Shown: positions 2,024 to 43,184 of the stretch, piece by piece
How positions within the stretch are numbered: the stretch's first letter is position 1
Layout: each line of letters begins with the position of its first letter
Origin: Bacteroidaceae bacterium
Lineage (GTDB): Bacteria > Bacteroidota > Bacteroidia > Bacteroidales > Bacteroidaceae
Direction of reading: 5' to 3'
Length of the DNA stretch: 64,000 bases
Assembly (NCBI GenBank): GCA_017529865.1
Contig: JAFXNA010000027.1
Span: 1-64,000, forward strand
The notes under the pieces: model-generated
What the model saw: the letters and a program-made list of their open reading frames with translations, nothing else
The model's database searches: none
What the model was told of the DNA's origin: nothing
Translations under genes and position numbers: made by a program

Positions 2024-2100
2024 ATAATTAATACATAATTCAGCAAAATTGCGGTTAAGAAAGTGCAATAAAAGCTTGTTTTTATTGCCGAACGCTAGAA

Positions 2101-2175
2101 AAAAAAGCGTTTTAGCCGAATATAATGTCACAACTTGTGTTTGAACATTATTGAGGCGCAGCTTTTAAGACGAAG
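2101..2175 (-). other. Dispersed ~75-bp structured element, copy 1
   Basis: On the minus strand this shares the conserved segments TGCGCCTCAA and ATTCGGCTAAAACG with 24266-24336 and 42760-42836. Outer arms AAAAGC and GCTTTT pair, and the inner arms ATAATGT and ACATTAT form a perfect 7-bp stem. Stem sequences differ between copies while pairing is kept. Function is unknown; it lies upstream of the disrupted gene. Confidence 0.55.
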
Positions 2176-2237
2176 TCAATTTAGACTTTTTCAAGTCAAT
2201 GCATAATTGACTAACGTCGAGTTTACTCGTTTGCCTG

Positions 2238-6877: not shown

Positions 6878-6962
6878 GTAAAAAAGTGACGAATTGAAGG
6901 ACTGAAGGATTGAAAAAAGGGAAAAAACACTAAACACCAAACGCTAAACGCTAAACTTTTTG

Positions 6963-6970
6963 TACCTTTG
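6963..6970 (+). promoter_or_regulatory. -7 box for the cobalamin operon
   Basis: TACCTTTG immediately precedes the riboswitch, so transcription would start a few bases later and include the whole aptamer. Confidence 0.75.
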
Positions 6971-6974
6971 CATC

Positions 6975-7205
6975 GGTTTTGTTCCCCACGAAGTGTTTTC
7001 GCTTCGCACGGATGAAAAGGGAATCAGGTGAAAGTCCTGAACAGTCCCGCTGCTGTAAGCCGCATTTACCAGCCAAGCACAAGTCACTGAAAGTAGACTT
7101 TAGACGTTAGACGATAGACTTTAGTTATGGTTCACGTTGACGTTGACGTTAAATTCGGGAAGACGCTTGGAAGTGGGCGGTAAGTCAGAAGACCTGCAAG
7201 ACGCA
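6975..7205 (+). promoter_or_regulatory. Cobalamin (B12) riboswitch
   Basis: Conserved core pieces appear in order: GGTGAAAGTCCTGAACAG with CCCGCTGCTGTAAGC (7027-7060), GCCAAGCAC..GTCACTG (7072-7089), GGGAAGACGCTTGG (7157-7170) and the B12 box AAGTCAGAAGACCTGCA (7182-7198). It lies between the promoter and the TonB-dependent receptor gene, as expected for an adenosylcobalamin-sensing leader that lowers expression when B12 is plentiful. The variable segment between CACTG and GGGAAG is occupied by four heptamers (7096-7123) and a GTTGAC-type repeat (7133-7151). No clear terminator follows, so control of translation initiation is likely. Confidence 0.93.
7096..7123 (+). repeat. Four heptamers within the B12 riboswitch
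   Basis: GACTTTA GACGTTA GACGATA GACTTTA. The stretch lies in a peripheral, non-conserved part of the aptamer. Confidence 0.75.
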
Positions 7206-7245
7206 TTATCATTCAAGAACCCCCGGGATTGGGTTATGATTGAAC

Positions 7246-23366: not shown

Positions 23367-24197
23367 TTATTCCAGCGTTCTCTGTCGGCAGAAATAGCCG
23401 GCAAAGGTCTCGTCGACATACTCTACGGATTCATTGAAGATTCCAAACACACTGCTTCCACTGCCCGACATCGCTGCATACAACGCACCCATATCGTACA
23501 GTTTGTCTTTGATGGCAGCAATCTCTGGATACTTACAGAACACACTGTCTTCGAAGTCGTTCTTCACGGTATCCTTCCACGTCTCAATCGGACGCATCAA
23601 CAGTTTCGACAACGACTCCTTTGGACGCTGAGGTGTTACATGGCGGTAAGCATCTGAGGTCGACACATAGATGTCTGGTTTGATAAGCAACAACACCTTT
23701 CCTGCCAACGACAATTTGATAGGATGGAACACGTTGCCGATACCTGTAGCCATCACAGGACGGTTCTTGATGAAGAATGGACAATCGGCCCCAAGTATCG
23801 AGGCATATTTCTCCATATCTGTATCCGTTAGTCCCAAACCAAACTTATCGTTGATAGCTTTGATGGTGAAAGCAGCATCGGCCGATCCACCACCCAGGCC
23901 GGCTCCTGTAGGAATATGCTTGAATACATTGAAACTCAAGTCAGGAATGTCGTAGTCTGACTTCAACAACTTATAAGCCTTTATCACCAGATTCTCTTCC
24001 GGAGTACCGTCGAGTACGTTTCCTGTCACTTTCAAGCGATAGCCACACATCGGAACATCCTCCTCAATTACATTCATCTCAATGGCATCCTGCAGATTGA
24101 TTGGATAGAATACCGTCTCCAAATCGTGATAACCGTCCGTACGTTTTGCTACCACATTCAGTCCGATATTAATTTTAGCATTTGGGTAGTATATCAT
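23367..24197 (-). CDS. ispE: 4-diphosphocytidyl-2-C-methyl-D-erythritol kinase
   Basis: A 276-residue GHMP kinase phosphorylating the 2-hydroxyl of CDP-ME in the non-mevalonate isoprenoid pathway. The N-terminal [19 protein letters not shown] contains the conserved Lys and the Tyr/His of the substrate pocket; [14 protein letters not shown] near residue 92-105 is the GHMP ATP loop, with the catalytic Asp in that segment; [12 protein letters not shown] near 245 is the third motif. Start ATG 24197, preceded by a -7 box at 24246-24253. Confidence 0.97.
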
Positions 24198-24245: not shown

Positions 24246-24253
24246 CAAAGATA
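24246..24253 (-). promoter_or_regulatory. -7 box for ispE-ligA
   Basis: The minus strand reads TATCTTTG, 49 bp before the ispE ATG. Confidence 0.65.
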
Positions 24254-24265
24254 GGAAATATTTCG

Positions 24266-24336
24266 CTTTACGCAAAATGCTACGCCTCAATAAATGCAAA
24301 TTAACTTGATTTATGTTCGACTTAAACGCATTTTTG
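24266..24336 (+). other. Dispersed ~75-bp structured element, copy 2
   Basis: Reads GCAAAATGCTACGCCTCAA, then an inner hairpin ATAAAT...CAA...TTG..ATTTAT, then TGTTCGACTTAAACGCATTTTT. Outer arms AAAATGC and GCATTTT pair. It lies between the ispE promoter and the 3' end of uvrA. Confidence 0.55.
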
Positions 24337-24386
24337 TCCATTTAACGATTTACTATTTACTATTTTTTCTGCTTAGGCAAAAAAAA

Positions 24387-40079: not shown

Positions 40080-42680
40080 TTAGTTTTGATTTTCGTTTTC
40101 GTTATCTGTAGCTTCCGTTTCCGGATTCTCTTTATACGTCATATTGGTTTGTCCGTCAGCATCGGGAACTGCATTCTCATCATCGCCCTCCACTTCTTCA
40201 TGCTCGACTTTGCAAACGCTCGAAATAGCATCGTTGCGCTTCTTGAGGTTGATGAGGGTTACACCCTGAGTGTTACGTCCCTGAATGCGTACGGTCTTGA
40301 GTGCCAGACGAATGGCAATACCACTACGGTTGATAATCATGAGGTCGTCATCGTCCGTTACACTCTTAATAGCAATAAGCTTGCCAGTTTTTTCTGTGAT
40401 GTTGAGGGTCTTGATTCCTTTTCCGTTACGGTTGGTGATGCGGTAGTCGAAAATTGAGCTGCGCTTTCCATAACCGTTTTCGCTGACGACGAGTACGGTA
40501 GGTATCGTTGGGTCGTTTGCCATTTCCTCTTCGCTAAAGCCTTCTGGCTTCTGGAGGGAAATCATACCTACGATTTCGTCTTCCGGACCATTGAGCTTGA
40601 GGGCACGTACACCTGTAGCACTACGTCCCATGACGCGAACGGTGTTCTCTACGAATCGGATGGCACGTCCTTCGCGGCTGGCAATCATGATTTCGTCTGT
40701 TCCGCTAGTGAGGAGCACATCCTTCACGATATCGCCTTCGTTGAGGTTGATGGCAATAATACCTGTGGTACGTGGACGGGCATAGTTGGCAAATGCTGTC
40801 TTTTTGACAACACCCAACTTGGTACAGAACATGAGGTTGTGGTTGTTGACAAACTCCTGATCGTTTATGTTCCTGATGCAGATGAATGCCGTTGCCTTAT
40901 CGTCAGAGTCGATGTTGAGCATATTCTGCACAGCACGTCCCTTGAAGGTCTTGCCGCCCTCTGGAATGTCGTAGACTTTCATCCAGTAGCAACGTCCCTT
41001 CTGGGTGAAGAACATCATAGTGTTGTGTCCTGTAGCAGGGTAGATGTGCTCTATGAAGTCGGTATCGCGAGCGCTTCCTCCCTTACTGCCTACTCCACCA
41101 CGAGCCTGTGTGCGGAATTCGGTGAGTGGTGTGCGCTTGATATAGCCGAGGTGTGAGATGGTCACAACACATGCATCGTCAGCATAGAAGTCCTCTGGAT
41201 TGAAGTTCTGGCTACCACGTGGGTCGATGACTGTCTTACGCTCGTCACCATATTTCTCTTTTACTTCAATCAGCTCGTCCTTCATCACCTTCTTGCAGAG
41301 TTCTGGGTCGTCGAGAATCTGCTGGAGGTATTCGATCAGTTTCAACAGGTCGTTGTACTCTGCATGGAGTTTCTCCTGCTGCAGACCAGTCAGCTGGCTG
41401 AGACGCATATCAACCACATACTTAGCCTGAGCCTCATCGAAGCCGAAGCGTTCCATCAAGCGGGTCTGAGCCTCCTGTGGAGTCTTCGACGACTTGATAA
41501 TCTGTACCACCTCGTCGATGTTATCGCTGGCAATGATAAGTGCTTCGAGCAAGTGTGCACGCTCTTCAGCTTTTTTCTTGTCAAACTTCGTACGGCGGAT
41601 GGTTACCTCGTGACGATGATCCACGAACTCCTTGATACAGTCCTTCAGCGTCAGGGTCTTCGGACGTTTGCGTACGATGGCAATACAGTTGACACTGAAA
41701 CTGCTCTGCAGTTCTGTCATCTTGTAGAGCTTGTTGAGCACCACATTCGAGTTCGCATCACGCTTCAAGTCGATTACGATACGCATACCTTCACGGTCCG
41801 ACTCATCATTCACATTGCTGATACCCTCAATCTTCTTTTCGTTGACCAGGTCGGCAATACGCTTGATGAGTTCCGACTTATTTACATTATAAGGTATCTC
41901 GTTCACGATGATCTTCTCGTGCTGTCCATCTGTTTCAAATTCAGTCTTCGAACGGATAACAATACGTCCACGACCCGTATCATAAGCCTCACGGATGCCA
42001 TCCACTCCACAGATGATACCACCTGTAGGGAAGTCAGGACCTTTGATATAGTGCATCAATCCATCCGTATCAATGTCTGGGTTGTCGATATAAGCCACAC
42101 ATCCGTCAATCACCTCACTCAGATTGTGCGTCGGGATGTTAGTCGCCATACCTACCGCAATACCCGTCGCACCATTTACAAGCAGGTTAGGAATCTTCGT
42201 TGAGAGAACCGTAGGTTCGGTGTTCGAGTCATCATAAGTAGGTTGGAAGTCCACGGTGTCCTTATACAGGTCGTCCATCATCACCTCACCCAGCTTAGTG
42301 AGTCTTGCTTCCGTATAACGCATAGCTGCCGCACCGTCACCATCGACCGAACCAAAGTTACCTTGTCCGTCTACCAGTGTGTAGCGCATCGCCCAAGGCT
42401 GAGCGAGACGTACTAATGCACCATAAACCGAAGAATCACCATGTGGGTGATACTTACCGAGCACGTCACCCACGATACGTGCACTTTTCTTTGTTGGTTT
42501 GTCCGAAGTAATGCCCTGTTCCATCATGTCGAAAAGGATACGACGATGAACAGGTTTGAATCCATCTCTGACATCAGGCAACGCACGCGCCACAATCACC
42601 GACATAGAGTAGTCGATGTATGAAGACTTCATCGTTTCGTTGATGTCCACTTTGATAATTCTGTCTTGCTGATCCACCAT
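40080..42680 (-). CDS. gyrA: DNA gyrase subunit A
   Basis: An 866-residue GyrA: winged-helix/tower breakage-reunion domain (about 1-520) and six-bladed beta-pinwheel C-terminal domain, ending in an acidic low-complexity tail. Catalytic Tyr122 is in [11 protein letters not shown]; numbering happens to match E. coli. The quinolone-resistance region reads [18 protein letters not shown]: Ser83 as in sensitive E. coli, Ser84, and Gly87 where E. coli has Asp. The GyrA-box QGRNTQGV near 775 distinguishes gyrase from topoisomerase IV. Promoter: -7 box 42839-42846, with a leader of about 150 nt carrying a 75-bp element copy and a hairpin. Confidence 0.98.
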
Positions 42681-42736: not shown

Positions 42737-42756
42737 AAATAGGGCTTTCCCTATTT
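42737..42756. other. Perfect hairpin in the gyrA leader
   Basis: AAATAGGG and CCCTATTT with a CTTT loop. No T-run follows on the minus strand, so it is not an obvious terminator. Confidence 0.45.
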
Positions 42757-42759
42757 TCA

Positions 42760-42836
42760 CTTCGTGCAAAATGCTGCGCCTCAACAATGCTCAAGCAAAT
42801 CTCTGGCATTCTGTTCGGCTTAATCGCATTTTTCGT
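42760..42836 (+). other. Dispersed ~75-bp structured element, copy 3, in the gyrA leader
   Basis: TTCGTGCAAAATGCTGCGCC TCAA, inner arms AATGC/GCATT, then CTGTTCGGCTTAATCGCATTTTT. If gyrA is transcribed from 42839-42846, the complement of this element is in its 5' untranslated region. Confidence 0.55.
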
Positions 42837-42838
42837 TA

Positions 42839-42846
42839 CAAAGATA
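42839..42846 (-). promoter_or_regulatory. -7 box for gyrA
   Basis: The minus strand reads TATCTTTG. It lies 159 bp from the ATG; no closer match was found. Confidence 0.55.
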
Positions 42847-43035: not shown

Positions 43036-43184
43036 GATGGTAAACGGTAAACGGTAAACTATCTTCGTTATCGTAGCGAAGCTCTGCTGAGCGTATCGTA
43101 ACGAAGTGTATCGTAGAGGCTCATCCACGTAACGTAGGAGCTTGCTCCGTGGCGTAGCGAAGCGTTTCGTACGAAGTCCCTTCG
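43036..43184. repeat. Heptamers followed by CGTAGCGAAG-rich repeats
   Basis: GGTAAAC is repeated three times at about 43041-43061. Then CGTTATCGTAGCGAAG, GAGCGTATCGTAACGAAG, TATCGTAGAGG and GTGGCGTAGCGAAGCG follow as short palindromic units up to the end of the SGNH gene. Related to 20125-20277. Confidence 0.55.

Follow-up and report, generated by a model that had tools for sequence, protein, structure and literature searches.

IS200/IS605 elements carry strand-specific hairpins at their ends, which engage in base-pairing, and they recognize a short target motif and leave no target duplication, while integron attC sites are recombination sites that act as single-strand hairpins with unpaired central bases. 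REP/BIME sequences, which are associated with RAYT enzymes, are short extragenic hairpins present many times per genome in arrays and mosaics, and CGTC-type REP families are likewise described without a dedicated transposase (PMC3733652). The closest described element of the Bacteroidales is the BrickBuilt MITE of Porphyromonas gingivalis, which has a 23-nt minisatellite, 12-bp terminal inverted repeats common to IS5-family ISPg elements and outward promoter activity (PMC4596501). Palindromic RNA candidates from Bacteroidetes are listed in PMC8040213. Bacteroidetes promoters are of an unusual kind: those of the sigma-ABfr type carry TTTG near -33 and TAnnTTTG near -7, with the -33 box not recovered in one member of the phylum (PMC7366714).

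Here, we characterize a gene-free element of ~74-82 bases, three copies of which lie in the window, i.e. the whole analyzed stretch of 64,000 nucleotides from a Bacteroidaceae bacterium. A search of the open-access literature returned no description of it. The element resembles REP/BIME sequences in forming short extragenic hairpins with many copies per genome, arrays and mosaics, but differs from them in length (~80 bp versus 20-40), in the possession of two hairpins and in an exact promoter phasing. With BrickBuilt, the element shares its occurrence in Bacteroidales, the intergenic location, the lack of genes, the existence of empty sites and terminal repeats with CCTTTGCA; promoter activity would be a further, predicted likeness. 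However, the anatomy differs, as neither a minisatellite nor ISPg-type terminal inverted repeats were seen. The reading that we prefer, and regard as fairly probable, is that of a dispersed mobile Bacteroidales repeat of REP/MITE-like nature, which would form a single-strand hairpin and be aimed at, or tolerated in, promoters.

A dispersed family with a conserved folded structure

A sequence-only reading of the window had proposed three copies of a ~75-bp element with co-varying stems. We scanned the whole window, with filters off, using a covariance model for which 26 copies of the same genome served as input. All three copies were recovered at their proposed positions, by the model as well as by reading the sequence, with matches at 2099-2181 (minus strand), 24260-24337 (plus) and 42754-42835 (plus) and E values of 3e-15 to 1e-17, and no fourth strong copy was detected. 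Of note, the model reads the strand opposite to the one used for description below, on which copy 1 reads 5'-AAAAAAGC...GCTTTT-mini-hairpin and is assigned to the plus strand. The element continues for ~10 bases past the outer arm given in that reading, into a covarying mini-hairpin, and the blocks described as conserved are not invariant, copy 2 having TACGCCTCAA and TTCGACTTAAACG and copy 1 TTCGGCTAAAACG.

Copy 1 (2099-2181, plus, E=3.4e-15) is a long unit of type 1, whose mini-hairpin GACGAAGTC (2169-2177, plus) was recognized from the sequence and from helix covariation. It stands in tandem with a degenerate type-2 unit (2044-2098, plus) that gave a weak model match (2052-2098, E 0.58), and the first arm of the latter holds a minus-strand TTTG (2047-2044), which precedes a minus-strand TAnnTTTG (2023-2016) by 20 bases. 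Copy 2 (24260-24337, minus, E=1.7e-16) is a short type-1 unit located upstream of the promoter of an ispE-like GHMP kinase gene (23367-24197, minus; ORF with Pfam GHMP_kinases_N/C). Copy 3 (42754-42835, minus, E=1.4e-17) is a long type-1 unit in the 5' leader of gyrA (40080-42680, minus; ORF, with Pfam DNA_topoisoIV matching the first 200 codons), and its mini-hairpin CACGAAGTG at 42758-42766 (minus) was read from the sequence.

The three window copies are members of a dispersed family of hairpin-forming DNA repeats found in Prevotella-type genomes. As to relatives of the own genome, a scan with GyrA returned MAGs carrying the labels Bacteroidaceae and Prevotella, at 79-85%. When copy 3 was employed as blastn query, 38 matches (E<=1) were obtained in the 3.32-Mb genome, and the covariance model yielded 62 matches (E<=0.1). 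By the same model the element was found in 11 of 16 congeners and, across the order, in 37 of 393 Bacteroidales genomes, while phages, plasmids and viral contigs gave no match. Units also form head-to-tail arrays, spaced 72-80 bp, and copies occur at many unrelated genes and at contig ends. The family is thus multi-copy, extragenic and hairpin-forming, with one copy being coding: it is read as the opening codons of an ORF that resembles an ATPase (MKNAIKREQSQARMNSAERSISRAAKEIKRIVLTGGPCAGKTT...; L093:1556-1900 on contig C36) and whose frame through the element is open both in this species and in the sister species G006 (L166:402-742). In the left flanks of four loci (L018, L021, L023 and L032) the copies are preceded by another repeat, which contains CCCTTAAGGG palindromes and forms a composite unit with them.

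A unit is composed of the outer arm AAAATGC, followed by GATTAA, GCC, GA and a variable stem with its loop, often CAAGCTTGCTTG; the 3' half then comprises GA, GGC, GTA, the outer arm GCATTTTG and the mini-hairpin CGCGAAGCG, beyond which the flank reads AAWW. In type-2 units, GCGAG...CCGAGC replaces the GCCGA...GAGGC of type 1. We read the main hairpin as containing a tandem G.A internal loop, and the mini-hairpin consists of 3 base pairs in the covarying versions CGCGAAGCG, CACGAAGTG and GACGAAGTC. The structure was specified manually on the basis of single folds. Among the 26 own copies, 13 of its 24 pairs were changed on both sides (mean of shuffles 6.1; this value was reached in 0 of 500 shuffles), which excludes chance as the source of the structure; of all cells, 91.8% pair. 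Compensation also extends to the relatives, where 21 of 24 pairs were changed on both sides and 92.7% of cells pair (98 matches, 95 distinct rows), with 381 doubly changed cells as compared to 121 after shuffling and no more than 72 in the slid controls, in an alignment fitted to the covariance model, which favours such counts. On a sequence-only alignment the RNAalifold consensus comprised five pairs, and single-sequence folding was mildly better than for shuffles, except for the type-2 copy and window copy 2. Further copies and compensated arms had been put forward initially as the test of selected structure, and both the 62 matches and the paired changes speak in its favour.

On the strand read by the model, A.C mismatches outnumber G.T mismatches by 46:12 in the own copies and 69:22 in the relatives, indicating that pairing on the opposite strand is preserved by G.T or G.U. 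Such an asymmetry argues for a single strand rather than a cruciform as the folded form, which is favoured but not proven. After thinning at 85% identity the asymmetry weakened to 21:8 (own), 33:11 (relatives) and 5:6 (distant set), with per-pair sign tests giving p values of 0.27, 0.18 and 1.0, respectively, and this counts against our preferred reading. The folding strand would be 5'-AAAATGC..GCATTTTG-CGCGAAGCG-3', with the main hairpin followed by the mini-hairpin.

The strand preference for G.U, the compensated helices together with the putative tandem G.A loop, and the sense orientation of leader copies at gyrA and on contigs C14 and C1 would suit a structured RNA, either cis-regulatory or located at a 3' end, whose function depends on its being transcribed. 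We regard such an RNA as quite unlikely: the downstream genes are unrelated and no gene context is conserved, the element is absent from the gyrA and ispE leaders of orthologs that were read within the genus, and no copy in the window matched Rfam at gathering thresholds, while at eight loci 11 weak matches with E values up to 1 all fell below these cut-offs and mostly concerned microRNA families. Elsewhere in the window a cobalamin riboswitch is located at 6962-7215 (RF00174, 91.8 bits).

Presence and absence between sister species

To compare the sites between species, we used 1.58 Mb of stretches, some of them overlapping, of the about 2.7 Mb sister genome G006. For 46 own copies we looked for both flanks in these stretches, which gave a convincing pair for 12 and none convincing for 34. 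Of the 12 copies with both flanks, four are present in G006 (C1:205562, C40:76467, C36:137656 and, in a diverged form, C56:78689) and eight are missing. Five of the latter correspond to clean empty sites, namely gyrA, C14:86380, C1:170754, C37:74057 (before a tRNA gene) and C20:579. In both G006 and G003 the -7 box of gyrA runs directly into the leader. At the places equivalent to copy 2 (ispE) and C44:102051, G006 has short AT-rich repeats instead of the element, and at C25:18386 the absence is accompanied by another change. These differences between sister species indicate that the element is mobile. In a check for target-site duplication, most of the five filled sites were bordered on either side by A-rich AAWW, AAAA being also the usual start of the element.

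The sequence-only reading had left a structured RNA, an operator and a MITE as options. Since clean empty sites exist in the sister genome, the MITE-like option is best supported, the element being short, gene-free and multi-copy as well; a regulatory RNA fits poorly, as does a classical operator, which is at odds with copies at many unrelated genes, in tandem arrays and at contig ends.

Many copies are flanked by arrays of 7-base AT-rich repeats (AATTATG, AATTATC, AATGGTC, GTAAACG), with which the element is in phase. Such arrays were seen in the window at 43038-43060 and at loci L029, L034, L085-L087, L182, L184 and L186; the AT-rich repeats of G006 at the ispE and C44:102051 sites are also 7-base arrays.

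Placement of the copies at promoters

All three copies had been said to adjoin promoters of minus-strand genes. This holds for copies 2 and 3, whereas for copy 1 there is only a possible minus-strand promoter, that of a 46-codon ORF. The proximity proved to be real and much more exact than originally stated. In copy 2, TTTG of the right arm (24273-24276, minus), a candidate -33 box of ispE, is separated by 19 bases from the candidate -7 box TATCTTTG (24246-24253, minus), which is conserved in G006 in the absence of the element. Copy 3, in the gyrA leader, lies just downstream of the candidate gyrA -7 box TATCTTTG (42839-42846, minus), at a distance of 3 bases.

We analyzed the spacing in 46 of the 62 own matches (53 matches minus six duplicates at overlapping loci and one partial copy at a contig end) and in 89 of the 98 relatives' matches, nine tandem or partial neighbours being left out. 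In 14 of the 46 own copies the right-arm TTTG was followed by TAnnTTTG at exactly 19 bases, which matches the box spacing of Bacteroidetes sigma-ABfr promoters, and in one at 18 bases, with no other spacing between 10 and 30 bases represented. By chance 0.03-0.15 such copies are expected, depending on the background, although common descent of promoter copies could inflate this statistic. Among the relatives the 19-base spacing occurred in 16 of 89, with one copy each at 18, 20 and 22 bases. According to a scripted classification, which on visual inspection puts a few rows (L023, L169) in the wrong class, promoter-spaced copies account for 14/17 own and 17/25 relatives' short type-1 units, compared to 1/29 and 1/64 of all other units; long and type-2 units show no promoter phasing. 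The next downstream gene is co-directional in 13 of the 15 own promoter-spaced copies; in the other two (L036, L087) an ORF of the downstream sense is listed as overlapping the element, which is beyond the ORF heuristic. The short subfamily seems to provide a portion of the promoter itself.

In nine of these 15 copies the upstream neighbour is divergent, so no transcript of a neighbouring gene passes through the element in the folding sense. A structured RNA is hence difficult to reconcile with most copies upstream of promoters, all 15 being located upstream of the promoter they face.

A second class comprises sense copies 0-5 bases after a -7 box. There are five in the 46 own copies (expected 0.2-0.9) and two in the 89 of the relatives, which is near expectation, so this start-site enrichment is confined to the own copies. 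Four of the five clean insertions are in sense orientation after a -7 box, at 3, 3, 3 and 12 bases. An outward -7 box, CAAAnnTA, is present in the first arm of 23 of the 54 copies from other genera, copies of one genus not being independent, and 14 of these 23 have an ATG frame running outward.

The exact 19-base spacing kept in the short subfamily, a conserved spacer between mini-hairpin and -7 box at short copies, and two short copies with orthologous counterparts in G006 could alternatively reflect a vertically kept promoter module, such as an operator or upstream element of one regulon, that was duplicated by recombination rather than transposed. We consider this unlikely, as the spacer (A-rich, then T-rich bases) is seen in weaker form in control promoters that lack the element, ispE of G006 keeps its -7 box without the element, the flanks past the -7 box are unrelated, and the long and type-2 units are not promoter-phased.

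In the mobile-repeat reading, the folded single strand would be moved by a trans-acting enzyme and inserted into S^AAW-type sites, often within promoters, where such sites would occur at fixed places in those of the sigma-ABfr type. A short unit would thereby bring TTTG of its right arm to the -33 position of the promoter entered, whereas long-type insertions at the transcription start would be carried in the leader as passenger hairpins, and units that leave the gene working would be retained. The S^AA junction at which the mini-hairpin ends is also that of the targets, so that a new unit could enter directly behind a resident copy, which may account for the tandem copies 72-80 bases apart. 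In this proposed account, S^AAW insertion and retention of tolerated units together would give rise to the fixed spacing, the sense leader copies and the arrays. A bolder version, which we put forward tentatively, is a single-stranded hairpin transposon that would enter the melted region or fixed A-rich motifs of sigma-ABfr promoters. Its terminal arms would at the same time serve as promoter boxes, as -33 box in this genus and as outward -7 box in other genera, allowing the transposon to spread with the gene left active and to rewire promoter boxes throughout the Bacteroidales. If true, a mobile repeat that arrives in phase and is equipped with a -33 or -7 box would naturally generate promoter change in a group that is dominant in gut and rumen, and the in-phase element would offer a ready-made genetic test of which Bacteroidetes promoter bases matter.

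Search for a mobilizing enzyme

The element raises the question of which enzyme moves short palindromic families without a RAYT of their own. Our search covered Y1-type enzymes. A Y1_Tnp match (E<=0.001) was present in 7 of 13 element-bearing genomes, and none of 12 tested Y1 loci had the element nearby (best E 0.054). A longer RAYT-like protein, composed of a Y1 half and a C-terminal half, is encoded in 14 of 61 related genomes. It was not found in the own genome or G006 and is present in G008 and G012, both without an element match. Again, no element was detected near the 24 loci tested of 30 fetched (best E 0.24). A RAYT was therefore rejected as partner of the element, as no tested Y1 gene, short or long, is flanked by it. 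As compared to IS200/IS605, the element differs in that no transposase partner was found, and its arms are not known to guide cleavage.

These data also bear on the possibility of a regular REP family that carries a GTAG or CGTC tag and is moved by a RAYT. Although intergenic location, a hairpin with an internal loop, head-to-tail arrays and mosaics with other palindromes are in line with it, an assignment of this kind is very unlikely: no unpaired GTAG or CGTC tag was seen at either end of the copies read with flanks, GTAG being confined to the interior of the 3' arm in type-1 units and not a general feature of type 2, no RAYT gene flanked by the repeat was found at the Y1 and RAYT-like loci tested, and G025, a near-complete and element-bearing genome, has no Y1_Tnp match.

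G025 additionally contains a long non-coding mosaic of hairpin repeats (L187-L189, 2.217-2.262 Mb) with nine element copies, all on the same strand. An integron array was considered for this same-strand cluster and rejected, since in the one cluster read the DNA is a non-coding mosaic of repeats without cassettes. A single Y1 transposase gene was found in the own genome (L043:1320-2190; C14:32129). It is flanked by a different palindrome, GCCCCAAAGGGGC, and gene and repeat together resemble a conventional RAYT with its own repeat. The long RAYT-like proteins at L396, L410, L403 and L399 comprise 340-400 aa, the C-terminal half being unassigned, and likewise have flanking palindromes of their own.
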